A stretch of DNA of 34,158 bases from a virus: IMG/VR virus record IMGVR_UViG_3300039100_000009, positions 1 to 34,158 of that record, one strand, 5' to 3'. The first letter of the stretch is position 1. Every line of letters begins with the position of its first letter. The notes below the pieces were generated by a model. It did no database searches. It worked only from the letters and a program-made list of their open reading frames with translations, and was not told the origin of the DNA. Positions 11,527 to 33,846 of this stretch are shown here, one piece after another. Position numbers and translations under genes: made by a program.

Positions 11527-12114
11527 TTATTTTTGTTTTAATTTTTGAAATGCGTTTTGAAGGCTGTTATACCTGTCTACTTTTTCTTCTTTGATTTGCT
11601 TTGCAAATTGGTTAGGTGCTGTGATAGCTTTATCGCTTGGCTCTTTTGCTAGAGACTCAAGAACTACGGCAGACATTTTCACCGCTTCCTTAACTTCTTC
11701 AGCTTTCTCTTCCATAGCCTTAACCTTTGCAGTCAATTCTTCTACCTTTTTCTCAAGGTCACCCATTGCTTGCTCAACCTTTGCCATTGCTTCATCCTTT
11801 ACAGGCTCTTCAGCAGGTACTTCTTCAGCAGCTTCGATCTCAATTTCAACCTTTGCCTCTGCTTGCTTTACCTCTGCAATTTTACCTTCTTCAAGGACTA
11901 CCACGATTTCACCTGATTCAAGTTGATGCTCCCCAACCGGTGCAGGGATCTGAGCCCCATCTTCACCAATTACGAAAATATCACCCGCCTCAAGGTCATA
12001 GGCAACCGCTGTGCCATCTACTAGCTTACCTTCAACCAATGCGAAGGCAGCCTCTTTCTCCTGCTCAGAGAAAAGAAGTTTTTTGATTTCTACTAGTGCG
12101 TCTTTTGCGTTCAT
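11527..12114 (-). CDS. Putative capsid scaffolding protein
   Basis: 195 residues from ATG 12114 (MNAKDALVEIKKLLFSEQ). An in-frame ATG 33 nt upstream lies inside the previous gene and is less likely. Residues 40-85 are beta-rich (EAGDIFVIGEDGAQI, GEHQLESGEIVVVLEEGKI); 90-165 are an acidic Ala/Glu/Lys coiled coil; the C-terminal end is basic (RYNSLQNAFQKLKQK), as in scaffold proteins whose basic tail binds the capsid protein. Position between protease and major capsid is the classical scaffold place. Confidence 0.7.
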   Translation of the reverse strand: MNAKDALVEIKKLLFSEQEKEAAFALVEGKLVDGTAVAYDLEAGDIFVIGEDGAQIPAPVGEHQLESGEIVVVLEEGKIAEVKQAEAKVEIEIEAAEEVPAEEPVKDEAMAKVEQAMGDLEKKVEELTAKVKAMEEKAEEVKEAVKMSAVVLESLAKEPSDKAITAPNQFAKQIKEEKVDRYNSLQNAFQKLKQK

Positions 12115-12136
12115 ATAAGTAAATATTAAATTGTTT

Positions 12137-13177: not shown

Positions 13178-13188
13178 ATCTTTAAGTA

Positions 13189-15303
13189 TTAAAATCCTGC
13201 CCTGCGTTCAATATCTGCTACTCGCTTCTGAGTGCCAGTCACATCGCTTTCCACCACATACGCACGCAAAGGTTTTGCAGGTTGCATAGCTGCCCCTAGT
13301 GCTGTGATCGGGCTGTTCCCAATAGTAGGTACTTGCGGAACTCCACCCGGTGCAGAAGCAGAAATAGAAGGAGCAGAAACTGCACCCGCTCCGGGTACTT
13401 TTGTCTTGACAATTTCACGCACATTCTTGATACCGCCTGCCACCGCAATAGCAGCAGCAATAGCAGCACGAATAGGGGAAGAAGGATCTGCAGGAACTAG
13501 CTGAGAGACATAAGCCTTCTGCGCACCCAGATAAGTGTCAATCGTAGTAGCTGCGATAGCCGTAGCCTTTCCTGCTGCCGTATTTTTACCTACTAGATCA
13601 GAGACCGTATTCAATAGCCCTGCTGCCATAGCAGCGTTCTGCATCTTAGCCTCATTCTCTTTCCGATCAATCTCGATTCTTGCCTCAGAATAGCCTTTCA
13701 TAGCTTCATTGAATTGCTGCTCATTAATTAGACCCTGCTGATATTGCTCAAGTGACAAGGCTTCTTTCCTGTCAATCAAATCCTTCTGAATCTGGTAGCT
13801 TGCATCCGCCTCTTTCATTTGCATGTCAAGATCAGCCAAAGCCTTTTCTGCATTCTGCTGATCAATGGTAAGCTGAAGGGCTGCAAGTTGCTGCTGCTCC
13901 TGCTGTGCTAGTTCTAGCTGCAGTGCGATCCGCTGTTCACCGGTCAGTTTCTCATTTGCTAGAATATCCTGTCGCTTGCTTTCAAAGTCAAGAAGTATCT
14001 GCTGTCTAGCCTTCTCATTTTCATCCTTGATCCCGGCAAGTCTGATCTCTGTTCGGATATCATTTAGCCTTTTCTGGAATTCCTGCTCCCGGCTATCTTC
14101 TTCTTCTTGGTACTGCTTTCTAATTTCAGCAAGTCTGTTCTGCCGTGCCATTTCTAGGCTGCCGTCATCCTTGATCCCTGCCTCTTTTAGCTTCTTTCTC
14201 TTGGCTTCATATTCCTTCTCTACCGCTGCTTCTTCCTGCTGTCTCTTGTCTAGCAGTTCTAGCTTCGCATCTTCTAGTATGCCCTGCGCTTCAAGTTCCA
14301 AAGCCCTTCTTTTATCGGCTTCTACTTTTGCCTTTTCCGCTGCTGCCTTGCTTTTCTCTGCTGCTGCTTTCTCCTGCTCCTGAGTAAACTTGTAGTAGTT
14401 GGCTGCTTCCACAGCGTTCTCTGTTAAAAGTTCCTTCTGCCGTTTCTGTTCTTCGTCTGTGAGTTCGCCCTTAGTTTTTTGAGTCTCTTCAAGTAGCTTT
14501 AATTCACCGTTGATCTGCTGCCTTCTAAGATTATAGATCTCTGCCTCTTTTCCGCCTTGGGCAGATAGTAGCTTGATTTTATTGTTGATGTCATCATTCA
14601 GCTTCTGATTAGTTTTGCCCAATGCTTCTAGGTTTCTTTCTGCCTCAGAAGTCAAGCCTATAAAGTCTGTGAATCCGGTGATGATTCCGCTGATGAATTT
14701 TCCTAGCTGTTCAAAAACAGGGAATAGCTTCATCATTACTTCCTTCACTTTGTCAAAGTTTGCAATCAGCAAACCTAGGGCAGCTACCAAAGCACCTACA
14801 CCGGTGGCTATAATCGCCTTGCTAAGTCCTTTCGTTCCCTTGGTAAGTCCATCCGTTGCCGTAGTGGCAGACTTTGCAGATACAAATAATCCCCTGAAGG
14901 ATAGCTTTAATTGCTCTGTGACCTTCCCTACATCTTTTAGTTGGGAAAGCCCCTGAGAAAGTGCCATTGCACCCTGTACTTTTAGGAGAGCCTTTTCTAC
15001 TTCTTCGGATTCAGAACCGAATAAAGCCATAGCACCCTGAACCGCTGCAATCCCACCGGCTGCTGTGGAGGCTGCCGTAGTTAATGCCTGAAATCTTTTG
15101 CCCGGATCAAATAGCTGCGATGCCTCATTTGCATCTTCAATAGAATCTCGGATGCTTGCTACCTTTTGCGCTGCCCGTACTGCTTCATCTGAAAATTCAC
15201 CGTACTTCTGCCGTGCTACTTGTAGTTCTTGAGTCGCTTCCCTTAATTGTTTCTTGAGGGGTTTGACGTCCGCATCTAAAATGATTTTATTTTCTTCAGC
15301 CAT
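13189..15303 (-). CDS. Tail tape measure protein
   Basis: 704 residues, mostly helical. Residues 1-60 start MAEENKIILDADVKPLKKQL; residues 60-130 are Ala/Gly-rich; a hydrophobic segment lies at 161-182 (AIIATGVGALVAALGLLIAN); 225-520 is a long coiled coil of Gln, Glu, Lys and Ala; and the end is Ala/Pro-rich with ITALGAAMQPAKPLRAYVVE, a C-terminal pattern I recall for tape measures of Bacteroidota phages. Using the usual rule of about 0.15 nm per residue, a tail near 105 nm is expected. Uncommonly, it lies downstream of the fibre genes and upstream of the head genes. Confidence 0.85.
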   Translation of the reverse strand: MAEENKIILDADVKPLKKQLREATQELQVARQKYGEFSDEAVRAAQKVASIRDSIEDANEASQLFDPGKRFQALTTAASTAAGGIAAVQGAMALFGSESEEVEKALLKVQGAMALSQGLSQLKDVGKVTEQLKLSFRGLFVSAKSATTATDGLTKGTKGLSKAIIATGVGALVAALGLLIANFDKVKEVMMKLFPVFEQLGKFISGIITGFTDFIGLTSEAERNLEALGKTNQKLNDDINNKIKLLSAQGGKEAEIYNLRRQQINGELKLLEETQKTKGELTDEEQKRQKELLTENAVEAANYYKFTQEQEKAAAEKSKAAAEKAKVEADKRRALELEAQGILEDAKLELLDKRQQEEAAVEKEYEAKRKKLKEAGIKDDGSLEMARQNRLAEIRKQYQEEEDSREQEFQKRLNDIRTEIRLAGIKDENEKARQQILLDFESKRQDILANEKLTGEQRIALQLELAQQEQQQLAALQLTIDQQNAEKALADLDMQMKEADASYQIQKDLIDRKEALSLEQYQQGLINEQQFNEAMKGYSEARIEIDRKENEAKMQNAAMAAGLLNTVSDLVGKNTAAGKATAIAATTIDTYLGAQKAYVSQLVPADPSSPIRAAIAAAIAVAGGIKNVREIVKTKVPGAGAVSAPSISASAPGGVPQVPTIGNSPITALGAAMQPAKPLRAYVVESDVTGTQKRVADIERRAGF

Positions 15304-15325
15304 TGGATAGGTATTTTAAAGGTTT

Positions 15326-15347
15326 GGGGAATCCCCAAGAATTCCCC
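15326..15347 (-). terminator. Hairpin before the tape measure gene
   Basis: GGGGAAT (15326-15332) pairs with ATTCCCC (15341-15347). The same bases can instead form TTGGGG/CCCCAA with a 3-nt loop (15324-15338), so two structures compete. It lies between the 48-residue gene and the tape measure start. The minus-strand sequence after it is AAACCTTTAAAATACC, without a U-tract, so it may act as an attenuator or processing site. Confidence 0.4.
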
Positions 15348-15356
15348 ATTTGATTT

Positions 15357-15503
15357 TTACTCTGCTTCTGCTTCTTCCTTCGGGTTCTGCTCCTGCACTT
15401 GCTGCGCTAGGAATTGAATGAAGGACATCCCGTACTTGGTAGGCAACTCTTGTGCCCATGCTTCTAGCATTTTGATTTGGTCCTCGTTAAGTGTTACTTT
15501 CAT
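15357..15503 (-). CDS. Small protein between tail fibre and tape measure
   Basis: 48 residues, starting MKVTLNEDQIKMLEAWAQEL and ending in an acidic tail (NPKEEAEAE); predicted helical throughout. It overlaps the end of the fibre gene by 17 nt. Its ATG (15503) is preceded by AAAACGAAAACCAAAC, the leader type of this genome. No family recognised. It fills what would otherwise be a 183-nt gap in a tightly packed operon. Confidence 0.65.
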   Translation of the reverse strand: MKVTLNEDQIKMLEAWAQELPTKYGMSFIQFLAQQVQEQNPKEEAEAE

Positions 15504-18500
15504 CTTCTGTTTGGTTTTCGTTTTGTTCTTCTACTATTTTAACTTTATCTTTTAAAGGTTCTACAATTACTTTACCATTTTCATCTGTCCAATCAGTATC
15601 AATCATGTGTTGGTCAATTCGTTCACCAATGATAAGCCATGAAATGGTATCCTTGCATTTTGAGTCTTGTGCTTCAATCTTCAAGATATTTCCCTCGACT
15701 TTTCCTTTTACCGGAGTCCATCCGCTTTCATTCGAAGTGAAACATTGAATGTTTCCATTCAAAAGTACAAATGTTCCTTCACTCATGCCCGATGAATTAT
15801 CAATATTTACTTCGGCCGATCCATGTACTAATTCAATTTTTCCTCTGTATATATTGTCCGCTTGTGGTCCTTCAATAAATGAATGAACAAGGTGATGAGT
15901 GTCTTTTTTCTCGGGTAATGGATGATCAATTTTAAATGATCCCGAACCTTTTGAAAGTGATCCGGAAACTGCAAGTCCACCGGTGATATTCCATCTTGTA
16001 TTCAAATAACTATACCTTAGTCTTTCGGTTGTGGATGCTTCTAATATTCTAAAATCATCGCCATCCGTACCAAGTCTATAATTGTAATTTGTTTGACTAC
16101 CAATTGTTATTTGTCTATTTACGCCATTTGGTAAATTTATATTTCCAACAACAGTCAAAATATCGCTTGGATTATCAGTGCCTATACCTACTCGACCATT
16201 ATCTGTAATACGGATTCGTTCTACTCCATTAGTCCCAAGTAATAAATTTCCCGCTCCATTTACCCAACCATATCCATTGGTCGAACTATACCCCGCCGTT
16301 AAACTACTTGAAAACCAATCCGAAATAGGACGATTTCCTGGCATATATAATCGGTCATTACTTGAAAGAAATCCACTTGATGTGACATTTCCAAAGAAAG
16401 TAGAGTCTCCGCTTGAAGATATTCTAAATCTGTTTATATCTCCAACTTGAATAAATGCGGCACCAGTACCCGTAGGATTCAAAGTCAAATATGAGTCTGA
16501 ATTAGTACCCGAACTTTGAAGCCTTAAATGAGAATATGTTGTTGAGTTTTCTATTTGCAAACCTACACCCGCCGTACTTCTTGAAATTAGCAAAGGATAA
16601 TTCGCACTTGAAGTAATTCCTATTCCTACATTTCCGGTAAAGGTCATGTTTAAAGTCCCAGTGGGATTATACATTATCCCATTGGTACCCGCATCAAGTA
16701 AAGCAAAGTTTGCAAAACTACCTGTTCCGGCAGTTATCTGTGTTCCCCAAAAACCGCCTTGAGAAAGCGCCCCGTTGCCCGTGTTAAACCTATTAGCCGT
16801 AGCCACTCCTGATGATGATACGCTAAAAAGATTTGTACCTCCCGTGTTTTGAAGGTTGTAATCTCCCGCCGTTACCGATGTTAGGTTATTGCTTCCCGAT
16901 GGAAAACCTATCACATTAATATCGGCACCATCCGCTCTTTTTGCAGTTAAATAGTAACCATTAAATAATCTAAAATTACCTGCTGTAGAAGTAACATTCC
17001 CACTAAAACTTGCAGTAGTTCCACCCAAAGCACCGGTGAGGGTTACTGCGCCGGTAGATGCCAAAGTAACTTGAGCATTACCCGCCCCTGCTCTTAGCTT
17101 TAATTCAGAACCTGAAGTGAAAATCTCTAAAGGTAGATTAGTAGATTCTATTCTGTTTGTAGTGCTTGCTAGGTTTGCTGTTAAAATAATAGAACCTCCC
17201 GGATTTGAAGCAATTAACCTAGTTGAGGTTTGAATATCACCGCTAAAACTAGCACTAGTACCCCCTAAAGAACCTGACAAAGTTCCACCTATTAAAGGTA
17301 GGTACGCATTAGAATCTACTGATCCATCCGCCTTTAAGAACTGAGAAGAAGTACCACTAGATTTTATAAATGAATTCCCGGTAATATTACCTTGAGAATC
17401 TATTTTTGCTTTTACAAAAGCAGCACCACCAAGGCTATAAACAAAAGGATCACCGGTAGCCCCAGATGCGTTATCTATATATAATCCCTTGCCTGTCGAA
17501 GTATTGCCTATCAATATCCCAGTTCCTGTGCTTGAGTTATTGGCAAAAATACCTTGACCTATTCCGGCATTGCTTACTCTTATTCCTGTACCATTTGTGT
17601 TTTTTTCTATATTAATAGCCCCGTTTCCTGTGGAATTTGAAATGATATTAATACTTGAAGCAGTTCCTGTATCGGTTAGCTGCACAGTTCCTCTCAGATA
17701 GGTATTTGTTATGCTTGAATTACCAATGGTTACAGTGTTGCTGCCGTTTCCGATAGCATTGTGACCGATTACTATCTGATTAGTTTGGTTATTGACTGAT
17801 GATCTTGTTGATACACCTATAAAAACCGAACCGTTTGAAATTGAATTTTGACTACTTCCATCTGTAAGAAAAACACCTGCCGCTACCCCAACTGCCACAT
17901 TATCATTTCCAGTAGTATTATTCATCAAAGCACCTTCACCTATTGATGTATTCCTAGCCCCTGTGGAGTTATTTCCTAAAGCAAGCAAACCTACTCCTGT
18001 ATTGCTACTTCCTGTGGTATTATTTGTTAAAGCACTAGTGCCAACTCTTGTATTAGTTGAAATTGATCCCGATCCTCTACCAACATTTACTCCATTAATA
18101 ACTGCATCCACAGAAAATGTCTTAGCACCCGCAATAGTCTGAGATCCGGTAGTAATTAAGCCCCGATTATCAGCCGAAGCACTTGGAATATTGAAAGTAT
18201 GCGTAGTTCCAGAACTTGAAATATTGAAATCAGTTCCACTTGTGCCGGTAGCGAAGTTCTGCACCTGTGCAGTCAACCCATTCAAAGCCGTCAATCCTGT
18301 GGTGAAGGTGGTGATGATTTGGCAAAGCGTATTATTTTCCGTGTGGAGGGTGATAGTCCTTCCTGAGTGCGTTACATAGTAACGAATCGCAAGCCTATCT
18401 GTAAGGGCAAGCGTCGTGGTAGGTACCGCAAGGCTTGAAAAGTATGGAGTGATATTTGTCCCGAATGCAATCAACTCAGGGCTTCCGCTACTAGTAGCAA

Positions 18501-19095
18501 TCAAGGTAGCAGTAGATCCGCTGACCTTGTAAAGTTCTACATAAAAGGTAGGGCTTCCGCCTCCAGAAGATGCCTGAAAATAAGTCTCAAAATTCCAGTT
18601 TCCACCGGGAATTTGTAGCAAGCTAGGATCACCTGCATCCGTTATGAATGAAGCAATATAGCCGTCAGCATTAATAGTGAAGTCTGTGCCTGCTCCCAAA
18701 ATGGGAACTTTGCTCAACTCTGTGTAAGCAACACCGCCAATAGTACCCTGAGATACCGATCCGTTCAAATAGTAAGATACTGAAGATCCGCCTCCAGAGA
18801 TTGAAGGGAAGTCTGCAAGGCTACCATCACCCCGGATATATTGGGAGACAGTACCCGCACCCGCCACAGAGATATTCCCTGAAGTAGTTACCGGGCTATT
18901 GGTTACCGTGAAAGCTGATGGCATAGATAAGCCTACGGAAGTGACCCCTACATCTAGGTTCTCCTGCATCCAGTCTTGGATCGTAGAAATAGTGACCTTG
19001 TTGGTAGTGGTAGCACCGCTTGCTACTATCGGAAGGACATCATTATTTGCGATATCCGTTCTTTCAATCAGTTGACTTATTCTCTTATCTGCCAT
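15487..19095 (-). CDS. Tail fibre / receptor-binding protein with YadA-like repeats
   Basis: 1202 residues. The N-terminal part (MADKRISQLIERTDIANNDV) is the virion-attachment end typical of Bacteroidota phage fibres. Then follows a Thr/Ser-rich part with VEFYVELYKVSG-like strands (about 165-235), and at about 345-410 repeats of the type NTxVGxxALxNNTTG as in heads of YadA-like adhesins. Residues 480-1040 are Gly/Ser/Asn-rich with repeated TSASFSGDI/TTASFSGNV units. The C-terminal module (about 1050-1180) has FKIDHPLPEKK, LVHSFIEGPQADNIYRG, GTFVLLNGNIQCFTSNESGW and IDTDWTDENGKVIVEPL, a fibre module I associate with marine and freshwater myoviruses. No S74 chaperone is visible. It likely binds the host surface. 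Confidence 0.85.
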   Translation of the reverse strand: MADKRISQLIERTDIANNDVLPIVASGATTTNKVTISTIQDWMQENLDVGVTSVGLSMPSAFTVTNSPVTTSGNISVAGAGTVSQYIRGDGSLADFPSISGGGSSVSYYLNGSVSQGTIGGVAYTELSKVPILGAGTDFTINADGYIASFITDAGDPSLLQIPGGNWNFETYFQASSGGGSPTFYVELYKVSGSTATLIATSSGSPELIAFGTNITPYFSSLAVPTTTLALTDRLAIRYYVTHSGRTITLHTENNTLCQIITTFTTGLTALNGLTAQVQNFATGTSGTDFNISSSGTTHTFNIPSASADNRGLITTGSQTIAGAKTFSVDAVINGVNVGRGSGSISTNTRVGTSALTNNTTGSSNTGVGLLALGNNSTGARNTSIGEGALMNNTTGNDNVAVGVAAGVFLTDGSSQNSISNGSVFIGVSTRSSVNNQTNQIVIGHNAIGNGSNTVTIGNSSITNTYLRGTVQLTDTGTASSINIISNSTGNGAINIEKNTNGTGIRVSNAGIGQGIFANNSSTGTGILIGNTSTGKGLYIDNASGATGDPFVYSLGGAAFVKAKIDSQGNITGNSFIKSSGTSSQFLKADGSVDSNAYLPLIGGTLSGSLGGTSASFSGDIQTSTRLIASNPGGSIILTANLASTTNRIESTNLPLEIFTSGSELKLRAGAGNAQVTLASTGAVTLTGALGGTTASFSGNVTSTAGNFRLFNGYYLTAKRADGADINVIGFPSGSNNLTSVTAGDYNLQNTGGTNLFSVSSSGVATANRFNTGNGALSQGGFWGTQITAGTGSFANFALLDAGTNGIMYNPTGTLNMTFTGNVGIGITSSANYPLLISRSTAGVGLQIENSTTYSHLRLQSSGTNSDSYLTLNPTGTGAAFIQVGDINRFRISSSGDSTFFGNVTSSGFLSSNDRLYMPGNRPISDWFSSSLTAGYSSTNGYGWVNGAGNLLLGTNGVERIRITDNGRVGIGTDNPSDILTVVGNINLPNGVNRQITIGSQTNYNYRLGTDGDDFRILEASTTERLRYSYLNTRWNITGGLAVSGSLSKGSGSFKIDHPLPEKKDTHHLVHSFIEGPQADNIYRGKIELVHGSAEVNIDNSSGMSEGTFVLLNGNIQCFTSNESGWTPVKGKVEGNILKIEAQDSKCKDTISWLIIGERIDQHMIDTDWTDENGKVIVEPLKDKVKIVEEQNENQTEDESNT

Positions 19096-19100
19096 AATTC

Positions 19101-21290
19101 TTAAATATAAAATCTTGAAGTCCCGTTTTCCTGAAGCATGTACGAATCATCTTCCAATAGAATGAAGTCATAGTCTGCAGGGCTGATATTTGTAAGGATC
19201 TTGAATAGGGATACATAGCTTAGACCGTTTGCGATCGGGTTATACTTATCAACTTTCTCAAGCTGAAAATAGTGAACACCTACTTTGATGATAGTCCTAA
19301 AATCTAGGTTCATGATGTCCGTAGGTGTGAGGTAGAAATAGCCCTCCAGAAGCCTGCTGTTCCGGTCTCCTATCGAAGTGATAAGCCTTTCGTAGTAACC
19401 CTGATACAGGTTATCTCCCGGATATACTCCGATCGAGAAATAGACTTCTCTAGGATTGGCAAATAGAACATCTGCCGAAGGTGTAATAGGATCATCTAGG
19501 TGACCTGCATACGGGTAATTGGTGTAGGCTATATCGCCTGAAGCATATTCTATATACCAAGTAGAACATTCTACCTGAGGCTTCCAGTACGCTATTCTAG
19601 GCTTGAAGTTGTCCGGTATTTTGACCCCATTTTCTACCTTATAAAGGTGGATCATGATCTGCCCCGGCACTTCCTCCCGCATTACCGGTGGACTAAATAC
19701 CACTTTCACCGTCTTGGTATCTAGCACGAAATCATTATCAATGATAGTTCTGCTTTCCCCGTAGGCTTCATTGAATTTGGTTTTGTAAAAGGTACTCCAG
19801 TAGTCCGCATCATCATCGAAGGTAAGCCTGTATTCCTTGGCTGTCAATTCTGAAAGTGGAGTGATCGAGATCTCCTGACTTTGATCTAGCTTATCTGACC
19901 AATCCAAAGCCTGATCCTTGAAGGTTCTGTAGAACTCATTATAAGGCACGATTTCAAGGACATTTGTCCGAAGTTTGTCCTGCGTTACATACAAGTTGTA
20001 CATGGAGATAATTGACTTTAAAAAATCCCTCTGCTTTAAAGATTTCGGCAGCGTATATTGGATTTTCATGGTATCCCCTTCTTCGAGTTCTACTGCTACG
20101 GGTACCGTGTTGCCGATCTTGAATGATCCAGTAGGCACTACCACTACCTGCGTTTCTAGGTTTGGATTATAGCCTCCGCCTCCACCGGCAACTGTACCGG
20201 TTAGCCTGATTTCAAAGTAATCATTAGTCGCAAGGGCAACCCCTTCAGAGATCGCTACATCCCAACTGAATACCTGACCGGGTGATATGAAAGTCACATT
20301 CCTAGAAGCAGAATAAATCTGTGATCCGTTTTTCAAAACAGAGACAGTCCAGATATTGTCTGTATATCCCTGAAGCGAAGTCAATGCAATTCTTAAATTC
20401 AGGTTTAATCCTGTGTTTAAAGATTGCGCTTTAGTCCATCTAAATCTGGTGCCTCCGTTTTGAATTGTAAATCCTGAAGCCTCTACGCTAGAAAAAACTA
20501 GTAGGTGCGTAAAGCTAGGAGTACTGGTGACATTCTGCTGAAATAAGCTAGGATTCTGGTTTAGCAAAGTTGTGCTTTCCCGTGTGATGGTTTTTTCTGC
20601 CGTGATCAAAAGCAGCTTTCTGAAATAGAAGCTACTGAAGAATGGTGCTTGAATCTCAAAGTTTGCCTCTGCAAAGATCCGCTTCAGAATTTCGCTAATG
20701 AATACCGCAGGCTTGAAGTTCTTTATAGGGAATATTGGATTATCATTAATCGTACCAGCTAAATATCCATAATCTACCAAAGGATAAACATAGTTATCTC
20801 CGCCATCAACCCATTCAGTTCGATCCCAAGAATCTTCTATATTCGTTCTATTCCAAGTGTGGTCATAGTCATCAAAATCAAGATCCGCCAGAGTCTTATC
20901 CCCTAGTTCGTGAAGGATATCCCGAAGCCTACCGAATACATTGACTTCATAAACTATGTCCCCTTCCAGAGAATTGATCTTCATCATCCTTAGAACTCCG
21001 TCAAATATCTTGACATTATCTAGGAAGATCTGAGCCTGCGCCTGCTTTGCCGGGTTAAAGTTCACCCCGATATTCGCATCCTCTGCATAAAAATCATTAT
21101 TGACTGAAATGTCAAAGATGTTCCCGAATAGCTGCTGATTCTTTGCCGTGCTTGGCAGGGTTATAGTCTTGGAATAGGCAGTATTTCTCCTTTCAATATC
21201 GCTGATGTCAGAAACCGAAAAGGTGAAATCTACATCAATATCCCCAAGGGTGTCCGCTTCAATTCCTTCTACAAATAGTCTTGCGCTCAT
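19101..21290 (-). CDS. Large tail protein (distal tail/baseplate type)
   Basis: 729 residues, beta-rich. The start MSARLFVEGIEADTLGDIDV and the stretch RRNTAYSKTITLPSTAKNQQ, then LFGNIFDI are a pattern recurrent in long tail proteins of Bacteroidota phages; the function there is thought to be tail tip or hub. A middle part (about 240-370) looks like a carbohydrate-binding-type jelly roll (lectin-like strands around FRWTKAQSLNTGLNLNLRIA). The C-terminal 300 residues have many short strands and end in EDDSYMLQENGTSRFYI. It lies between two other tail genes, 5 nt before the fibre start, so a baseplate hub is the best guess. Confidence 0.65.
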   Translation of the reverse strand: MSARLFVEGIEADTLGDIDVDFTFSVSDISDIERRNTAYSKTITLPSTAKNQQLFGNIFDISVNNDFYAEDANIGVNFNPAKQAQAQIFLDNVKIFDGVLRMMKINSLEGDIVYEVNVFGRLRDILHELGDKTLADLDFDDYDHTWNRTNIEDSWDRTEWVDGGDNYVYPLVDYGYLAGTINDNPIFPIKNFKPAVFISEILKRIFAEANFEIQAPFFSSFYFRKLLLITAEKTITRESTTLLNQNPSLFQQNVTSTPSFTHLLVFSSVEASGFTIQNGGTRFRWTKAQSLNTGLNLNLRIALTSLQGYTDNIWTVSVLKNGSQIYSASRNVTFISPGQVFSWDVAISEGVALATNDYFEIRLTGTVAGGGGGYNPNLETQVVVVPTGSFKIGNTVPVAVELEEGDTMKIQYTLPKSLKQRDFLKSIISMYNLYVTQDKLRTNVLEIVPYNEFYRTFKDQALDWSDKLDQSQEISITPLSELTAKEYRLTFDDDADYWSTFYKTKFNEAYGESRTIIDNDFVLDTKTVKVVFSPPVMREEVPGQIMIHLYKVENGVKIPDNFKPRIAYWKPQVECSTWYIEYASGDIAYTNYPYAGHLDDPITPSADVLFANPREVYFSIGVYPGDNLYQGYYERLITSIGDRNSRLLEGYFYLTPTDIMNLDFRTIIKVGVHYFQLEKVDKYNPIANGLSYVSLFKILTNISPADYDFILLEDDSYMLQENGTSRFYI

Positions 21291-22468
21291 ATTACCTGTC
21301 TGGTGTTAAGAAGTTGAAACTCCACATCCAATTCAAGATTGAACAGCTTATCCGAAGCCGTTTTCTTCACTTCGTAGGTGGTAGCGTTTGGCTTGACAGG
21401 AATCCAAGAAGGAGTGATATAGTTATCATTCACTAGGTTCAAGTAGACCAAAGGTGAAGAGTATAGTTCCCGGATAAGTTCCGCCTGAACATCATTCAAG
21501 TAGTCAGAAATGATTCTCCAGTTCTGAGTTTCTTTTGTGAAATATACCGGGTTCACATTCTTGACCACGATCCCATTTGCCTCATAGATATCCCCGCTGT
21601 AGTTTCTTTCATAGCCTTTCTTCTCGATCTGGAATGTAGTCTTATTAACTAGATCAAAGTTGAAGAAGTCAAAAGCCCCGTACTTATTCAGGTAAGCTAT
21701 TCGCATCGGATCGTATCGACCGCAGGATTGGGTATATAGGGTTGCAAATTTGTACCGCCTTGCAGATCCGTTATTCCAGTTGACAAAAAGCTGAATAGAA
21801 GCTACACCTGATCCGTAGGTCAAAGGTGTGATCTGAATGTAGGTAAAGCTTGGAGTTGATACGGAAGTAGGTGTGATGTAGTAGGTTTGAGTGGTAGCGT
21901 TTGTATAGGTTACTAGCAGTTCACAATTCACCAAAAGCCCGGTGTTAATGAATCCGAATATCTGAGCATCTGTCTCCCGCACCTTGATCGTGTCCCAATC
22001 TGTCAAAGGCTTGTAGATTGAATTGCTAGATCCCCAATATTGAGCCTGTTCTGCGTACCAATTTTTCAATTCTAGCAAAGGGAAAGCCCCAGCAAAAGCG
22101 TACTTAGTTTCACTGACCACTTCACTAGCTAAAACAATAACAAATTCACCGCCTACCTCATAGTACTCATAGCACTTCAAGTAATAGCTTTTAATCGCAT
22201 TGGTAGAACTAGAAGAAGTAGCCGTCTCATAGAATCCTTTGCTGTAGCTAAAATCTACAGAGACATACTTGGAAACATCGAACTCCACCGGATCGCTTGG
22301 ATCTGCCGGGCTGTCATAGTAGGCAGTGGTCACAAGTTCATCTGCTGAATTGTAGACTTTCACAACATACTTGAAGCCTACTTCTTCTGAGTTCGTGCTG
22401 CTGATCGTGTAGTTAATCCTGTTGAATGCAGGAAGGATGTCTATGCTAGGTTCTACTAGGGTTATCAT
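21287..22468 (-). CDS. Tail protein, beta-rich (distal tail/tip candidate)
   Basis: 393 residues. The N-terminal 130 residues form Ig-like strands (MITLVEPSIDILPAFNRINY then VVKVYNSADELVTTAYY). The segment GRYDPMRIAYLNKYGAFDFF with following NFDL is a strongly conserved mark, in my memory, of a tail protein encoded near the tape measure in Bacteroidota phages. The C-terminal part ends NLELDVEFQLLNTRQVI. It overlaps the genes on both sides by 4 nt. Role in the tail tip is inferred from context. Confidence 0.6.
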   Translation of the reverse strand: MITLVEPSIDILPAFNRINYTISSTNSEEVGFKYVVKVYNSADELVTTAYYDSPADPSDPVEFDVSKYVSVDFSYSKGFYETATSSSSTNAIKSYYLKCYEYYEVGGEFVIVLASEVVSETKYAFAGAFPLLELKNWYAEQAQYWGSSNSIYKPLTDWDTIKVRETDAQIFGFINTGLLVNCELLVTYTNATTQTYYITPTSVSTPSFTYIQITPLTYGSGVASIQLFVNWNNGSARRYKFATLYTQSCGRYDPMRIAYLNKYGAFDFFNFDLVNKTTFQIEKKGYERNYSGDIYEANGIVVKNVNPVYFTKETQNWRIISDYLNDVQAELIRELYSSPLVYLNLVNDNYITPSWIPVKPNATTYEVKKTASDKLFNLELDVEFQLLNTRQVI

Positions 22469-23085
22469 TTGCTTATTCTTAAAATGAGTGAGTCTGTTCC
22501 AATGGTTTTGATATCAACATTGAATTCTGGAGTAGCTTCATCTATTGACTTTTTGATAAATTGCCTTCCTTCAATACCGTACTTTTTAATATAGTAGGCT
22601 AATCGCTTGGCACTACTTGAAATTTGTGGCAGCATACTTCGACCCTCGATCAGGTTGGTAGCTTCTATCTCCATGTTCTTCCGCTTCATCCATCCTTCCA
22701 ACTGCTTCAAAGCTGCTGCAGGCATGTAGTAGGTTTTGAACTGGTAGAATCTCCCCTCTTCATTCTTGTAGGTCTTGCGCTTGTTTTTAATGCCCTTGAC
22801 GCCCTTATCTATGTAGTCAGCATAGTCAACCCCTACTTTTATTTCAAGCCTGTATCCGGTCTTAGTTTCGCTTACTCCGATCACAGAGAAAGAAGAAGAC
22901 AACTTCCCAGAATCGGCAGGGGAATACTTTGCTAGATTGGTGACAATATTGCCACCTAGTTTCAGCATCGCATCCTTAACATTTGCAACAGCAATTTTCT
23001 CTACTTCCTGAATGTATTCATTGGGCTGAAGTTTCCTTCCCCCTACATTTAGGTTTGCTACTTGACTTTTTGTTGCAACTGCCAT
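22465..23085 (-). CDS. HK97 gp10-like head-tail/tail completion protein
   Basis: 206 residues. The core (about 30-110: MLKLGGNIVTNLAKYSPADS, GKLSSSFSVIGVSETKTGY, IKVGVDYADYIDKGVKGI) matches the HK97 gp10-like layout: helix, S-P-DSG-L-S, strands, then YA-Y-d-G. The DYADYIDKGVKG loop is diagnostic. Such proteins sit in the tail completion or neck complex. It overlaps the frameshift frame of the chaperone gene by 28 nt. Its position beside the chaperone fits tail assembly. Confidence 0.7.
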   Translation of the reverse strand: MAVATKSQVANLNVGGRKLQPNEYIQEVEKIAVANVKDAMLKLGGNIVTNLAKYSPADSGKLSSSFSVIGVSETKTGYRLEIKVGVDYADYIDKGVKGIKNKRKTYKNEEGRFYQFKTYYMPAAALKQLEGWMKRKNMEIEATNLIEGRSMLPQISSSAKRLAYYIKKYGIEGRQFIKKSIDEATPEFNVDIKTIGTDSLILRISK

Positions 23086-23324
23086 TTTTTTAACTGCGCT
23101 TCCTTGTCCTTATTGTAATCTTTTAAATATGCTAGGGTATTCAGGTACTCAATTACCCTCATTTCATAGCCTTCGTTTACTGTTATATTCTGGAAGTCTG
23201 CGACCTGCTTAGTGCTAAATACCCAGCCCCACCTTGCCATAAATCCAGTACCTTCTTCGCCATCTTTTGATTCTCCATTGAGAAGGTTATGGTAGTTCCG
23301 ATTAATTCGCTGAATAATTGACAA
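23058..23324 (-). CDS. C-terminal extension of the tail assembly chaperone, reached by -1 frameshift
   Basis: This frame encodes 88 residues (SIIQRINRNYHNLLNGES near its start, then MARWGWVFSTKQVADFQNI, and a Lys/Gln-rich helical end WQLQQKVK). It has no ATG at its beginning; the only early start would be a TTG inside a run of T. A TAG lies a few codons upstream in this frame. All this fits production as the second half of a fusion with the gene starting at 23785, by slipping back one base on the T run at 23331-23323. The fusion would have about 154 + 88 = 242 residues. G/GT-type chaperone pairs of tailed phages are made this way. Confidence 0.75.
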   Translation of the reverse strand: MSIIQRINRNYHNLLNGESKDGEEGTGFMARWGWVFSTKQVADFQNITVNEGYEMRVIEYLNTLAYLKDYNKDKEAQLKKWQLQQKVK

Positions 23325-23785
23325 AAAAAAAGCATACAGCTATATACTTCTATGAATTTTGCCCCTAGCAAATCATCCGCTACCACATCATGAGGCACCA
23401 CCCCATAGCCTTGATATTTGTCTCCTTTCATCGGAAGAAAGAAGCAGGCAGCAATCTTATTAATCTGCATGATCTCACCGCTAAAAGCCAAGATATCAAT
23501 GTATTGCCCTGCCGTGATCTCGTGTAGTTCATAGCAGAACTTGTATCTATTTTCCCCTACCTGCAAATAGTCCGCAGGCTTTTTATCCGGGATATTGTCA
23601 AAGAAGGACAGCTTCTCTGCGTACTCGTGCATCAGATCCCGGTACTTGTAGGTATCGTAGATCTCCTCATCCTTCCCCTCCACGATTGCAAGCATCTTCT
23701 GCTGCTTCTCGATTATATTCAGGTTTGCATTTGTCTCAATATCGTACAGGCTAATGAACTGCCCAACAGTCAATTTATCCCACAT
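23183..23785 (-). CDS. Tail assembly chaperone (short form, zero frame)
   Basis: 200 residues beginning MWDKLTVGQFISLYDIETNA. The first 150 residues (KLTVGQF, PADYLQVGENRYKFCYELHE, GQYIDILAFSG) have the layout of gpG-like tail chaperones in Bacteroidota phages (they start with a substrate-like GQF/GQY repeat). A run of nine T on the coding strand falls at codons CTT TTT TTT TGT; a -1 shift there joins residues 1-154 to the 88-residue downstream frame. The two products, 200 and about 242 residues, would correspond to G and GT, which coat the tape measure before tube assembly. Ordinarily this gene directly precedes the tape measure; here four large genes lie in between. Confidence 0.75.
   Translation of the reverse strand: MWDKLTVGQFISLYDIETNANLNIIEKQQKMLAIVEGKDEEIYDTYKYRDLMHEYAEKLSFFDNIPDKKPADYLQVGENRYKFCYELHEITAGQYIDILAFSGEIMQINKIAACFFLPMKGDKYQGYGVVPHDVVADDLLGAKFIEVYSCMLFFCQLFSELIGTTITFSMENQKMAKKVLDLWQGGAGYLALSRSQTSRI
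23323..23335 (-). other. Probable -1 programmed ribosomal frameshift site
   Basis: The coding strand reads ATG CTT TTT TTT TGT. The heptamer T TTT TTT fits the X XXY YYZ rule, allowing both P-site and A-site Phe tRNAs to re-pair after slipping back one base. The -1 frame opens a few codons before (TAG) and stays open for 89 codons. No stem-loop was confirmed downstream by eye. Slippage of polymerase on nine T could give the same products. Confidence 0.7.
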
Positions 23786-27543: not shown

Positions 27544-29745
27544 TTAGAAAAGAGTCAAAGTAGATTTTTGCATCACAGCATTTTTATGATTCTGAACATT
27601 TACCTTGAAATAGCTTTCTTTAAGTTCTATGCTTACTGACTTTCTGCCCATCTTCAAAGCCTGATATCCTTCAGATCCAATACCACCAAAGAAAGATCCT
27701 ACTGTCTCTCCTTCATTGCTGTACAAATGAATAACTCTTTCAATTGTATCTAACTGCAAAGGGCAAATATGCTTCTCATCATTTGAATCTCTAGCAGTAG
27801 TGTATTGCAAAGTCCTAGAATAATCAACATCATACCAAACAGGGCTAGCATATTTTTGCCAAAGATCTACAGGCAAATAGTCTGGCTTGCTTGAGTCTTG
27901 ATCTTGGTGAGTTATTGGAATTAGATTATCTCCTTCATTTCTAAAAAACAAAATGTAATCAGGAATACCTACCCTACTCATTGAACTATCTTTTTTGATA
28001 GTTTTATGCAACAGACCTAGTGCCTTGGTTCTTTGCATTTCAGTTACAGGGTTTTTCCATATTGTGGTTCGTGCATGGTATACAAATCCATTGTCTGCAA
28101 ACCATTTAATAAGCATTCCTGAGAAGTCTCTTAATCCAATAAATCCTTCTTTGCCCTTCTGAATAGGAAGATCCATGCAGTGAATAGCGCAGATCCTACC
28201 CGGCTTTAATGTTCTTTTAATTTGAGGGATCAAATATTGAAAGTGCTTTTCAAATTCTTGATAGTTAGCCACATTCCCCATATCCTCAGGCTTATCTGAA
28301 TAAACATAAAGCTCAGCGAATGGGGGGCTGAATACCACTAAATCTAATTCATTATCTTTAATGTCTTTTGATCTTTGAACACAGTCTCCAATTAAACATT
28401 TAAAGTCTTTTGTAATTAGATCATTATATTGACCTAGATCCTTCTTGAATTCTTTATACTCGCTTGATTTCTTTGCTAGTTCTGATATCATTTTCTTATG
28501 CTTTTTTTCTGATTCTAGTATTTTACCCTTTACATTTATTTGATTCTTAGGTGTAAGTATGTGGACATTTACCTGATTCTTTTGACCGAATCTATGCATT
28601 CTCCTTACCCCTTGATAGAACTTCTCAAATGAAAAGTCGTAGGCTAGAAAAATCATATTATTTGCATTCTGATAATTTAGACCCATTCCTGCTATGCTTG
28701 TTTTGGTTATCAAGTATTTGATATCACCATCACCAAATGCTAGTAAATTTTTAGCTTTTTGCTCTGGTGTATCAGATCCTTTAACATTTATAGATCCAAA
28801 TATTAATTTTTGAAGCGCTTCTGTTTCAGTATTTGAAAGCCCCCAAATAAGAAACTGATCATCCGGCTGATCTTTTAATATTTGTAAAACAGAATTAAAT
28901 CTATCATGTTGGCTTGCTTTTAATTCTTTGTGTAGATCAGTTGCTGATACTATAGCCTCACCGAATAGATCTGTTTTATCTGAAGCGACATCTATCAAAT
29001 GCTCTATGTAGTTAACTTCAGGCAAGTCATATCCTGTGCCATCAAATCCAAATGTTTTGGGATTATCAATTGCTATAGCCCATGAAAGCACAAAATCCCA
29101 GAAGTCTTTTTCAGCGTGCTTTCTTAGTCTCCATTTAGAAGTTTCTCCACCATCATGAACAAAGTACTGCGCTAGCATTTCATGATAGGAGCATACATCT
29201 AAAAACTCAGCATGGTTTCCTAGTTCCATGTGATCATTTGGGCTAGGTGTTGCTGAACATGCTAATTTGTAAGGAGTTAATTTAAAGCAGTCAATGATCT
29301 GCTGTCTAGTTTTTCCAGATTCATTTTTAAGGATTGAAGATTCATCTAGTACTACCCCTGAAAATAATGAAGTATTAATATTATCAAGTTGGTCATAGTT
29401 AGTGATATACACCGAATTAGATAGAACCTGATCATCTAAATGTTGGCATTCAAGTTTCCACTTCTTAGCCTCCTTTATTGTTTGACTTACCACAGCCAAA
29501 GGTGCTAAAATTAAAACAGGCTCATTGGTATGCTTTAAAACATGGTTAGCCCATTCTAACTGCATGAATGTTTTTCCTAGTCCTGTATCTGCAAATAAGG
29601 CATACTTACCATGCTCTAGTGCTTTTTGAACTATGAACCTTTGAAAATCTTTCAACTTAGGATTAAGTTGATCCTGATCTAGTTTAAATCCAGACCTTAA
29701 AGCCTTGCGCTTTTTTGTTTCGATAAATTGGCAGTAATCATCCAT
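27544..29745 (-). CDS. SNF2-type helicase fused to a DNA methyltransferase
   Basis: 733 residues. Residues 1 to about 430: superfamily 2 helicase with ADTGLGKT (Walker A, near 53-60), VVLDESSIL (DExx box), LACSATPSPND (motif III), TKTSIAGMGLNYQNA and QGVRRMHRFGQKNQ (motif VI). Residues about 450-733: methyltransferase with VVFSPPFAELYVYSD (motif IV, SPPF) before GSFFGGIGSEGYQALKMGRK (motif I, AdoMet), the order of the beta class, which includes N4-cytosine and N6-adenine enzymes. A helicase would help scan or open DNA. Protection of phage DNA from host restriction, as for P1 DarB which also joins these functions, is a reasonable inference. Terminator follows; leader AACAAACCAAAAAACA precedes. 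Confidence 0.9.
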   Translation of the reverse strand: MDDYCQFIETKKRKALRSGFKLDQDQLNPKLKDFQRFIVQKALEHGKYALFADTGLGKTFMQLEWANHVLKHTNEPVLILAPLAVVSQTIKEAKKWKLECQHLDDQVLSNSVYITNYDQLDNINTSLFSGVVLDESSILKNESGKTRQQIIDCFKLTPYKLACSATPSPNDHMELGNHAEFLDVCSYHEMLAQYFVHDGGETSKWRLRKHAEKDFWDFVLSWAIAIDNPKTFGFDGTGYDLPEVNYIEHLIDVASDKTDLFGEAIVSATDLHKELKASQHDRFNSVLQILKDQPDDQFLIWGLSNTETEALQKLIFGSINVKGSDTPEQKAKNLLAFGDGDIKYLITKTSIAGMGLNYQNANNMIFLAYDFSFEKFYQGVRRMHRFGQKNQVNVHILTPKNQINVKGKILESEKKHKKMISELAKKSSEYKEFKKDLGQYNDLITKDFKCLIGDCVQRSKDIKDNELDLVVFSPPFAELYVYSDKPEDMGNVANYQEFEKHFQYLIPQIKRTLKPGRICAIHCMDLPIQKGKEGFIGLRDFSGMLIKWFADNGFVYHARTTIWKNPVTEMQRTKALGLLHKTIKKDSSMSRVGIPDYILFFRNEGDNLIPITHQDQDSSKPDYLPVDLWQKYASPVWYDVDYSRTLQYTTARDSNDEKHICPLQLDTIERVIHLYSNEGETVGSFFGGIGSEGYQALKMGRKSVSIELKESYFKVNVQNHKNAVMQKSTLTLF

Positions 29746-29819: not shown

Positions 29820-30161
29820 TTAAAAAGGTAGCATCTTATAGATCCCCATGTGAATAAATTCTTCTCCTTTCTTCACTATGCACTTTCTGACATTCAACTC
29901 GAAGACCATCTTATCATTAAATCCGTACTTCTTCTGAGCCAAATCTAGGGTGACTTTTATGCCATTGTCAATGTCGGAGGCTTTGCTGCTGAACCCAAAA
30001 AATAATTCCACTCGAAGCATTACATTAGGATCTACTTTTCCAGCAGGCATTCTCAGAAGCATACTTTTTTCATGTTCCCTGTATGCCGCAGATTTTATCT
30101 TTCTACCTAAGAATGCCCCATTGACTGAAAGAGGCTTTTCATTTATCTTGAATTGAATCAT
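29820..30161 (-). CDS. rusA: RusA-type Holliday junction resolvase
   Basis: 113 residues, the usual RusA length. The start PLSVNGAFLGRKIKSAAYRE, the acidic block SKASDIDNGIKVTLDLAQ with two essential Asp residues, and FNDKMVFELNVRKCIVKKGE match RusA. RusA cuts Holliday junctions and branched DNA to prepare concatemers for packaging. It overlaps the stop of the membrane gene upstream as ATGA (30158-30161) and ends 74 nt before the helicase gene. Confidence 0.9.
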   Translation of the reverse strand: MIQFKINEKPLSVNGAFLGRKIKSAAYREHEKSMLLRMPAGKVDPNVMLRVELFFGFSSKASDIDNGIKVTLDLAQKKYGFNDKMVFELNVRKCIVKKGEEFIHMGIYKMLPF

Positions 30162-30334
30162 TTGCAGATCTTATAGAGTAGATCCATTCCAATAGTATAA
30201 AGCGCTACTATCACAATAAACAAAAGCCCAAAATCAAATTTGAAATGGAACAGGGCAAAGATTGAAAGCAAGGTAGACTGGATGCTGAATAGATCCTGCT
30301 TGCTAGGGATAAATTGATTAAGTATCTTTTTCAT
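30158..30334 (-). CDS. Small membrane protein in replication block
   Basis: 58 residues starting MKKILNQFIPSKQDLFSIQS and containing two hydrophobic stretches (about 18-30 and 36-52, FGLLFIVIVALYTIGMDLLY). It begins directly after the TAA of the previous gene (zero gap) and ends in an ATGA overlap with rusA. No family recognised. A membrane protein among replication genes might tether replication to the membrane, but this is a guess. Confidence 0.6.
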   Translation of the reverse strand: MKKILNQFIPSKQDLFSIQSTLLSIFALFHFKFDFGLLFIVIVALYTIGMDLLYKICK

Positions 30335-30514: not shown

Positions 30515-31140
30515 ATTAGCTGATCTAGGTTTCTATTTTCCTTAATTGATTCCAGAATAAATAGCTTCCAGATCTTATTCTTTGACTTTGCCCCTACGGT
30601 GACTTCATCTATGTGCCGGGTACTGATCCTTAATTCCCTTCGTACATCCTTTTCAATGTCTTCTACCGGATACTCCCAAGGCTTTAGTATTCCTTTCTCT
30701 TGGAACTTATTAAACCAATTAGCACCCCACTCAGCTAGATCCTTGCAGAAGCCGTGATCTTTTGCGTACTGGTAATTATCCCGGAATATCTGCTTCCCTA
30801 CTCCGATCCAGTATTCTATTTCTTCATTGGTAGGCTCTTGATCTTTGTTGTTCATTGCCTGTACTTCCTGTACTATTTGGCTCTGGTGGTGCGTATAGTA
30901 TTGATTGATCCAACCGCTTACATTCTTTTCGTTAACATGGTAAAAGTCCCCGTACTGCCCCCGCATCCCTGCATGAAGAATGTAATCAACCCGGTTTTCA
31001 CTCATCCACCCATAGCTAGTAAATAGCTTGTTTAGGCAGTCAAGAAGTTCCTTTGCATCTTCTTGGCTGTACTCTTTAAATTGCTTAAGCCCACAAACGA
31101 ATTCCATCTTTTGCAGGTGTTTCAGAATTATTGCTTTCAT
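30511..31140 (-). CDS. Hypothetical replication-block protein
   Basis: 209 residues, mostly helical, rich in aromatics: SYGWMSENRVDYILHAGMRG, QYGDFYHVNEKNVSGWINQY, NEEIEYWIGVGKQIFRDNYQ and WKLFILESIKENRNLDQLI. In Bacteroidota phages a protein of this sort follows the DUF6291-like initiator. I think of a helicase-loader partner or a DnaT-like helper, yet have no motif to prove it. ATGA overlap with the initiator gene upstream. Confidence 0.55.
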   Translation of the reverse strand: MKAIILKHLQKMEFVCGLKQFKEYSQEDAKELLDCLNKLFTSYGWMSENRVDYILHAGMRGQYGDFYHVNEKNVSGWINQYYTHHQSQIVQEVQAMNNKDQEPTNEEIEYWIGVGKQIFRDNYQYAKDHGFCKDLAEWGANWFNKFQEKGILKPWEYPVEDIEKDVRRELRISTRHIDEVTVGAKSKNKIWKLFILESIKENRNLDQLI

Positions 31141-31835
31141 TGGTTTGCTTGTTTTTTAAGTTCTTCTTCCTTGAGTAGTTCTTGGTACATATCCGCAAAT
31201 ATGTTTTTGCTCTTAGGCTTTTCTTCTTTTGCCCGGTAAGTATTGACCCTTGACTGCTTAAACCTGCTTGCGTTATTTTTTACAAACAAGATAAAACTAT
31301 TTTTTAAATGCTTTTCGCTTTCAAAGGTTCTATCATCATGGGTAAGATCCCATTCCTGATATAGCTTCTGAACTTGATCATCTGTAAGATCGTAGATGTG
31401 AGCCATATCTTCAAATAGGTTTTTTCCTCCTAGCCTCCTAGTAGTAAAAATAGTAATAGAAGATATTACATTATCATTTACATTACCATTTACATTTACA
31501 TTACCATTTACATTTACAGCTAGGTTTGCTACATTATTTGTAGCATTGCTAGGTTTTGCTAGATCATTTCTAGCATTGCTAGCTTTTGCTAGACCGCCCT
31601 TCTTTCCCGCCTCTGCCCTTTGCTCCTTCTTTTCATCCCAGATCCTAAGATCTCTTTTTAGCTGAGTCTTAATAGGAAGGAATGCCACCTTGATAAGTTT
31701 GTCCTCTGTGACTGGATCTTCATCATTCACATAGGAAAAAATATGCTTGATCAACTTCCCGGCATCTTCATCTGAAAGTTCATCAAAAACTTCCCGCTGA
31801 TCCGTGTACAAAACAAATGATTTTTTACCCTGCAT
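31137..31835 (-). CDS. DUF6291-like phage replication initiation protein
   Basis: 232 residues. The start KSFVLYTDQREVFDELSDED then AGKLIKHIFSYVNDEDPV, and LIKVAFLPIKTQLKRDLRIW then DEKKEQRAEAGKKGG is the DUF6291 layout of putative replication organisers. Residues about 80-125 are low complexity (SNARN/SNATN and NVNGNVN repeats), derived from DNA repeats. The C-terminal half (QVQKLYQEWDLTHDDRTFES, HLKNSFILFVKNNASRFKQS) is helical and may be DnaD-like. Its ATG follows an intrinsic terminator by only a few bases, so expression depends on read-through of the leader RNA. It begins the replication block. Confidence 0.75.
   Translation of the reverse strand: MQGKKSFVLYTDQREVFDELSDEDAGKLIKHIFSYVNDEDPVTEDKLIKVAFLPIKTQLKRDLRIWDEKKEQRAEAGKKGGLAKASNARNDLAKPSNATNNVANLAVNVNGNVNVNGNVNDNVISSITIFTTRRLGGKNLFEDMAHIYDLTDDQVQKLYQEWDLTHDDRTFESEKHLKNSFILFVKNNASRFKQSRVNTYRAKEEKPKSKNIFADMYQELLKEEELKKQANQ
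31467..31520. repeat. Three tandem 18-bp A/T-rich repeats inside the replication gene
   Basis: Units at 31467-31484, 31485-31502 and 31503-31520 share ACCATTTACATTTACATT; the second and third differ in two bases, the first in four. They encode the NVNGNV stretch. The run is A/T-rich and lies next to a second repeat family. Confidence 0.75.
31531..31590. repeat. Two tandem 30-bp repeats inside the replication gene
   Basis: Units 31531-31560 and 31561-31590 share 20 bases, TAGCATTGCTAGSTTTTGCT, with one change, and a partial copy (TAGGTTTGCT) precedes at 31521. They encode the repeated SNARN/SNATN segment. They resemble iterons in arrangement: short direct repeats beside an A/T-rich region within an initiator gene, as in the lambda O origin. 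Confidence 0.7.
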
Positions 31836-31840
31836 TTTAG

Positions 31841-31930
31841 AAAATAAAAAAGCCCAACTGGTGGTAGACAGCCGGGCTTAGGTTTAGTTAACCTATGGAA
31901 TTATTCTTGCTACCACACAGGAATAATTCG
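31841..31930 (-). ncRNA. Structured leader RNA with loop-loop complementarity
   Basis: Three hairpins follow a promoter box on the minus strand. H1: GAATTATTC/GAATAATTC, 9 bp, arms 31929-31921 and 31906-31898, loop of 14 nt. H2: TAGGTT/AACCTA, 6 bp, loop of 5, at 31895-31879. H3, the terminator: AGCCCGGCTG/CAGTTGGGCT, 10 bp with two G-U, loop TCTACCAC, at 31878-31851, then six T. The H1 loop holds GTGGTAG (31916-31910), the exact complement of CTACCAC in the H3 loop (31867-31861). The RNA could be a stand-alone small RNA of about 85-90 nt or the attenuator of the replication gene that starts 16 nt past the stem. Confidence 0.75.
31846..31878 (-). terminator. Intrinsic terminator in the leader of the replication gene
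   Basis: A 10-bp GC-rich stem with an 8-nt loop ends directly in TTTTTTATTTT on the minus strand, the textbook form. Its U-tract ends about 6 nt before the ATG of the DUF6291-like gene (31835), a position that makes sense for attenuation and not for ending the upstream gene alone. Confidence 0.85.
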
Positions 31931-31935
31931 ATGTA

Positions 31936-31943
31936 CAAATATA
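31936..31943 (-). promoter_or_regulatory. Promoter -7 box of the leader RNA
   Basis: TATATTTG on the minus strand matches the Bacteroidota -7 consensus TAnnTTTG exactly. It is placed about 7 nt before the first base of hairpin H1. The -33 box is not obvious (an A/G-rich region lies there). The upstream gene stops at 31957, so the box is intergenic. Confidence 0.6.
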
Positions 31944-33516: not shown

Positions 33517-33846
33517 TCAAGAAAATTTTTGAATCAATTTTTTATCAGTAGCCTCCTTGATCAGATCGCTGACTAGCTTTTCTTTTACATTTAGATCTTC
33601 AGCTATCTCCTTCTTGGAGTATCCCCAACAGGCAAGGGTTATCACCCGGTTGACTAGTTCCCTTGGCATCTCATTTACTAGGTTTCCTCTTGGGTTATTT
33701 CTCTGCACTTCCAGAATTCCGTATAGGATGTAGTTAACCGCTGCCAAGCCTACTCCCATGATCTCAGCTATCTGGTGCTTTGTATTCCCTTGTGTGTATA
33801 GTTCCCTGACCAAAGGCACTAGGGCTTCATGTTTGCAAGCTGCCAT
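33517..33846 (-). CDS. Protein with two helix-turn-helix segments
   Basis: 109 residues. The first HTH is near 20-43 (TKHQIAEIMGVGLAAVNYIL) and the second near 75-100 (YSKKEIAEDLNVKEKLVSDL). Both follow the A-x(3)-G/N-V-x(5)-V pattern of sigma-region-4/Fis-like helices. A cysteine-containing short start is present. It may be a DNA-binding regulator of early genes or of replication. It overlaps the small gene upstream by 28 nt; promoter copy 2 starts just past its stop. Confidence 0.65.
   Translation of the reverse strand: MAACKHEALVPLVRELYTQGNTKHQIAEIMGVGLAAVNYILYGILEVQRNNPRGNLVNEMPRELVNRVITLACWGYSKKEIAEDLNVKEKLVSDLIKEATDKKLIQKFS

Follow-up and report, generated by a model that had tools for sequence, protein, structure and literature searches.

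Leader RNAs of a set of phages carry two hairpins, the first and the terminator, whose loops (L1 and L3) are complementary, and this complementarity is real. In the sequence analysed here, a virus record of 34,158 bases referred to below as the window, the 7-nt match alone is only suggestive; its conservation in all 88 readable leaders of near relatives, rather than the statistics of the window, settles the observation. The letters of the two loops change rapidly and together, and they differ between the RNAs of a single genome. No description of such a kissing-loop leader family was found in literature searches.

Anatomy and conservation of the leader

The main genes of the window are on the minus strand, and so is the leader, which runs from 31943 to 31846 (Table 1). 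An earlier reading of the letters alone (hereafter the sequence-only reading) had proposed two hairpins with complementary 7-nt loops, a small hairpin between them, a -7 box upstream and the ATG of a replication-type gene just downstream. Every one of these elements is present, the ATG (31835) being located 10 nt after the T-run. Folding of the window RNA on the correct strand gives -32.3 kcal/mol with z = -5.0 (RNAfold). The layout supports an RNA of ~85 nt, from promoter to terminator, as a predicted unit; we infer that it is transcribed and that attenuation takes place.

Table 1. Coordinates of the leader elements, of the downstream gene and of a set of three leaders from one contig
Feature	Position	Strand	Basis or remark
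Promoter -7 box TATATTTG, Bacteroidota-type	31936..31943	minus	Sequence; TANNTTYG box common in relatives
Hairpin H1	31898..31929	minus	Outer stem of 9 bp, extended inward by 2-3 bp in RNAfold
L1 GTGGTAG, H1 loop	31910..31916	minus	Complementarity to L3 conserved, with covariation
H2, small spacer hairpin (AGGTTAACTAAACCT core)	31879..31895	minus	RNAfold
Terminator hairpin H3	31851..31878	minus	10 bp, 8-nt loop UCUACCAC; RNAfold; compensatory stem changes
L3 CTACCAC, terminator loop	31861..31867	minus	Exact complement of L1
U-tract (T-run) of intrinsic terminator	31846..31851	minus	Sequence
PF19808 (DUF6291) / phrog_19415 protein gene	31137..31835	minus	Weakly like phage primosomal proteins (phrog_6451)
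Three leaders of one phage contig (L283)	8218, 7363, 865	minus	Before antirepressor, replication operon, small membrane-like gene

The product of the adjoining PF19808 gene is 232 aa long and some of its relatives are annotated 'replication protein'; the terminase lies ~7 kb from the leader RNA. On the other side, an HTH-like ORF of 49 aa (MRRRNLTEYEKELIFSRWQDR...LKRRSLVG, 32106-31957, minus strand), absent from the ORF list with its cut-off of 60 aa, stops ~15 nt before the promoter box and could regulate the leader promoter. By a loose motif test, 40 of 61 relatives have a short ORF ahead of the RNA, and most of the ORFs listed end in a similar LKKRxLVG. Two further ORFs of the window were observed in passing. 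One of 733 aa (27544-29745, minus strand) fuses a SNF2-type helicase with an N6/N4 DNA methylase. The other, of 250 aa (5937-5185, minus strand) and without PHROG match, occupies an unusual place beside the lysis genes and looks to us like a PAS-type sensor domain accompanied by membrane segments.

A chance match between two such loops had been put at the order of one in a thousand, which is too generous: when the loops were shuffled with their own composition kept and the first was compared to the last over 7 nt, 0.7% of the shuffles reached 7 nt. Relatives were fetched from viral contigs by means of the downstream protein alone, the RNA being left unused. Scanning with the DUF6291 protein gave 46 loci, and with the Lin1244_N-type protein, its replacement in sister phages, 61 loci. 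The 7-nt complement is kept in 35/35 and 53/53 readable near-relative leaders respectively, so that the conservation proposed beforehand as a check is found throughout; L1 is GTNNNAG and the terminator loop carries the sequence exactly complementary to it, and six loop pairs are present in the set. Two loops complementary over at least 6 nt with conserved pairing are features that the RNA shares with the kissing-loop structural class. Among distant relatives, the complement was not seen in L040 and L141, and L140 (47% protein identity) displays a different loop pair, AGGGCATG / ATGCCC.

The H1 loops are unequal and misaligned by MAFFT, so that covariation was counted on a gapless cut-out instead of a covariance model. 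In the 29 sequences used, some of them scanner-found members for which complementarity was required, pairing of the loop helix is 100%; at its three variable pairs all 32 changes affect both sides, and neither a one-sided change nor a mismatch occurs. These positions display 2-4 Watson-Crick types (GC/AU/CG, GC/AU and GC/UA/AU/CG) and never a wobble. The covariation score of the whole structure is 0.362 versus 0.133 in shuffles, and the signal is lost when the partner is slid by one column (0.038-0.120). Compensatory changes are found in the terminator stem as well. The covariation analysis called for by the sequence-only reading thus returned paired changes throughout, and together with conservation it supports selection on the loop-loop helix.

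Occurrence and diversity of the family

The wider search employed a script that looks for a hairpin followed by a terminator hairpin, with a 7-mer of the terminator loop complementary to the first loop. On the first set it produced 135 matches versus 19 on reversed sequence; complementarity being a condition of the script, independent evidence for it comes from the protein-anchored set alone. Scans with the loop pair and terminator reached further contigs with unrelated flanks. Over all loci, 61 distinct RNAs were collected, with other loop sequences in addition to ten GTNNNAG pairs (GUNNNAG/CUNNNAC as RNA): GTGGTAG, GTGGAAG, GTAGGAG, GTAGCAG, GTGAGAG, GTCGGAG, GTCGCAG, GTCGTAG, GTTAGAG and GTTGGAG. 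A constant GUNNNAG loop holds in the close group and fails in phage 11b (CGGGCAGG), G015, G003, L191 and L140. Apical loops are mostly of 7-8 nt (L1) and 7-9 nt (L3), and H2 folds in 57 of the 61 RNAs and is missing in 4. TANNTTYG is located 19-27 nt before L1 in 52/61 (9% in shuffles), and an ATG follows the T-run within 45 nt in 59/61. Copies without this box include two in L069 and one in L174, whose GC is 40-52% and whose promoters we read as sigma70-like (TTGACG-17-TATAGT, TTGACC-18-TATAAT and TTGACT-17-TATACT); these features suggest that the family probably extends beyond Bacteroidota phages.

The genes following the leaders encode replication proteins, helicase-related products and antirepressors (KilAC, Bro-like). 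The position before replication genes is thereby borne out; a role in replication initiation alone, as first envisaged, is too narrow, since the leader also precedes antirepressor and other early genes. Related leaders with loop complements of 8-9 nt and without an obvious gene start after the T-run were observed in L191 and L237 (contigs G005 and G004) and are possibly free-standing versions.

Two cultured phages carry the leader. In Flavobacterium phage 11b it is found at 33,644, within roughly 33,620-33,730 of NC_006356 (CGGGCAGG / CCTGCCCG, after a TATATTTG box) and precedes PHG11b_62 and the DUF6291 homologue PHG11b_63; in Olleya phage Harreka_1 it is found at 30,092, within roughly 30,070-30,170 (GTGGTGG / CCACCAC), before genes leading to a replication protein. 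The scanner alone expects 0.4-0.5 loose matches per genome of this size, and what makes both matches convincing is that a promoter box, a terminator and the appropriate gene accompany them. The scanner found no such leader in phages tooticki6-1, elemoC_14-1A (first 50 kb) and Porphyromonas phage005b, the stray matches in the first and the last being devoid of the leader layout. In bacterial genomes a single match was obtained, on a Sediminibacterium MAG contig, and among 395 genomes of the same phylum matches look, by an approximate tally, no commoner than in the reversed-pattern control. As far as these scans reach, the leader RNA belongs chiefly to phages that are not integrated. At the Rfam gathering threshold no match was returned for the window and just a tRNA for seven diverse loci, and extension to E = 10 gave nothing credible in the window region, neither C4 nor isrK. 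Nucleotide searches of phage records gave no match with the window leader and short chance-like matches only with three other leaders.

Loop turnover is fast. At 90-95% identity of the downstream proteins, a loop is shared by 32% of the pairs of Lin1244_N type and 21% of those of DUF6291 type, and the protein trees require at least 17 and at least 14 loop changes respectively. The proteins of L012 and L013 are 99.6% identical while their loops are GTGGTAG/CTACCAC and GTGGAAG/CTTCCAC. Three contigs contain several RNAs (three in G015, two each in G001 and G003), always with different loops. In G015, GTACGAA stands before a KilAC antirepressor, GTGAGAG before the replication operon and GGTCAAG before a small membrane-like protein; the second RNA of G003, with loop GCTTCGA, is weaker. 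Cognate loop duplexes reach -6.9 to -10.7 kcal/mol and within-genome cross pairs -2.2 or weaker. Between alleles of different phages, GTCGTAG L1 pairs with GTCGCAG L3 at -8.5 and GTTGGAG L1 with GTCGGAG L3 at -8.6, so that not all alleles are orthogonal by this simple duplex measure. Some phages seem to exchange whole leader cassettes and not single loops, and recombination would account for part of the turnover.

Proposed mechanism and rival explanations

We put at about an even chance that the RNA is a leader attenuator whose antisense loop is self-specific, the short RNA pairing in trans. The proposed mechanism can be summarized as follows. RNA polymerase would start at the TATATTTG promoter and H3 would end most transcripts, leaving a compact RNA of ~85 nt, while in the remainder transcription would continue into the early gene. 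A complex of 7-8 bp would then form between L1 of one molecule and L3 of another, with both stems intact; complementarity confined to loops of 7-9 nt on intact stems indeed suggests a kissing complex. As L3 would leave the polymerase while the terminator forms, the free or engaged state of L1 and L3 could set termination. With the build-up of genome copies and of short RNA, the latter would bind nascent leaders and shift the termination frequency, more termination rather than less being the favoured direction. The outcome would be a dosage feedback on early operons and an interference among phages sharing a loop type; such interference would select new loop pairs and would favour loop pairs that differ from operon to operon within a phage. 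The downstream replication and antirepressor genes, being of the kinds controlled by P4 CI and IsrK, were counted in favour of the attenuator.

The main rival is an element acting in cis only, in which an L1-L3 pseudoknot within the same molecule would set terminator strength or RNA stability and the loops would merely avoid a side effect in trans. The order of the two partners never varies and both always belong to one short RNA; at the exit channel, L1, which is made first, could capture L3; and avoidance of cross-talk would also account for the loop differences within a genome. The hairpins, however, seem too long for a one-molecule coaxial kiss when H2 is folded: an estimate from helix and linker lengths, crude in that an opened H2 or opened stem ends could permit pairing within one molecule, allows it in 2/61 RNAs; in 33/61 loop contact is possible but requires helices bent to 60 degrees. 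Action in cis does not by itself account for several loop types among phages that are 90-99% alike either, and we judge it unlikely, if worth serious attention. No length limit applies between two molecules, for which a closed dimer comes naturally; the limit within one molecule favours pairing of accumulated short RNA with new leaders, as in the trans attenuator. Pairing with copies of itself, one of the options named by the sequence-only reading, is now a serious one, favoured by the fast loop turnover, the within-genome loop differences and this rough geometry.

The same two loops of 7-8 nt per molecule would permit closed dimers with short linkers, and there are precedents for phage-linked RNAs that homo-oligomerize through intermolecular kissing loops (PMC12286853). 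A structural RNA forming dimers or rings by head-to-tail pairing, with the terminator merely as its 3' end, is nevertheless improbable: the leader is nearly always located directly before a gene, with as many as three in a genome ahead of different operons, which fits regulation better, and is without long conserved sequence elsewhere in the RNA. A trans-acting small RNA directing L1 against messengers of the host or of other phages would agree with the free-standing promoter and terminator and with the exposed 7-nt loop; we find it highly improbable, as the rest of the phage sequences shows no specific enrichment of cognate 7-mers, the loop letters differ among near-identical phages and L3 would be left without a role. 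Dispersed L1 targets were considered in this connection. GTGGTAG occurs in 10 copies in the window versus 1.6 expected; a similar excess exists in some relatives with other loops, and that of the window is probably a coding bias. Eight further copies of GTGGTAG/CTACCAC were observed in structural genes (11898-23386), above the shuffle prediction. Finally, origin hairpins acting as DNA would adjoin the replication gene as the leader does and could form in single-stranded DNA too. With a promoter directly before and a U-tract directly after on the same strand, and with up to three copies per genome that also precede antirepressor and other genes, such a DNA element is barely credible.

A broader and more tentative proposal, which we hold possible while leaning against it, is a widespread phage RNA compatibility system: every early operon would have a loop pair taken from a repertoire of types, self-recognition in trans by the terminated RNA would cause interference within a loop type and leave other types unaffected, and selection would maintain the diversity of the repertoire. 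Such same-type-only interference is likened to that of plasmid incompatibility RNAs.

Relation to known RNAs and significance

In our best reading, the kissing-loop leader would work like P4 CI, P1 C4 and IsrK while being built differently. P4 CI is a small RNA from the leader of its own replication operon, which pairs with sequences of the same transcript and controls termination before the replication genes (PMC4825925). A longer transcript is processed to yield CI in this satellite phage, and the targets of CI, seqA and seqC, are external to it, whereas the kissing-loop RNA targets its own terminator loop, exists in many coexisting loop types and has no Rfam match. C4 of phages P1 and P7 consists of antisense stem-loops upstream of an antirepressor gene, on the same transcript as their target. 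Several kissing-loop relatives likewise precede KilAC or Bro antirepressors; the window and the seven loci searched do not match the C4 model, however, and the targets of C4 are downstream of it and not in its terminator. Compared with the C4/P4 CI type as a whole, the present RNA shares a location in the leader of replication or antirepressor operons and departs from it by a target within its own terminator loop instead of outside the antisense RNA, with no match to the Rfam covariance models (C4, isrK). IsrK of Gifsy-1 has a terminated short form and a long form reading into the antirepressor operon (PMC4825925). It differs from the kissing-loop leader in acting by freeing a ribosome site, and its Rfam model gave no match here. 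To our knowledge, IsrK has no internal kissing pair.

Loop pairing between molecules is found in the phi29 packaging RNA, with two complementary loops per molecule, and in GOLLD/ROOL cages. Unlike the packaging RNA, the present leader ends in a terminator and has neither a packaging-gene context nor an Rfam match. In ColE1, 7-nt kissing loops of RNA I and RNA II decide the replication event, RNA I being made from the opposite strand and complementary throughout; in the leader both kissing loops are on one strand and complementarity is confined to them.

Diverse phages thus have, ahead of replication and antirepressor operons, an RNA family without Rfam 15 entry whose promoters are mostly of Bacteroidota type. 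Loops that change fast yet always stay complementary are the kind of signature that self/non-self recognition leaves, and they point to an RNA switch by which a phage recognises its own copies. The presence of the leader in two cultured phages makes this idea directly testable, and the loop pairs would supply natural kissing parts of differing specificity.
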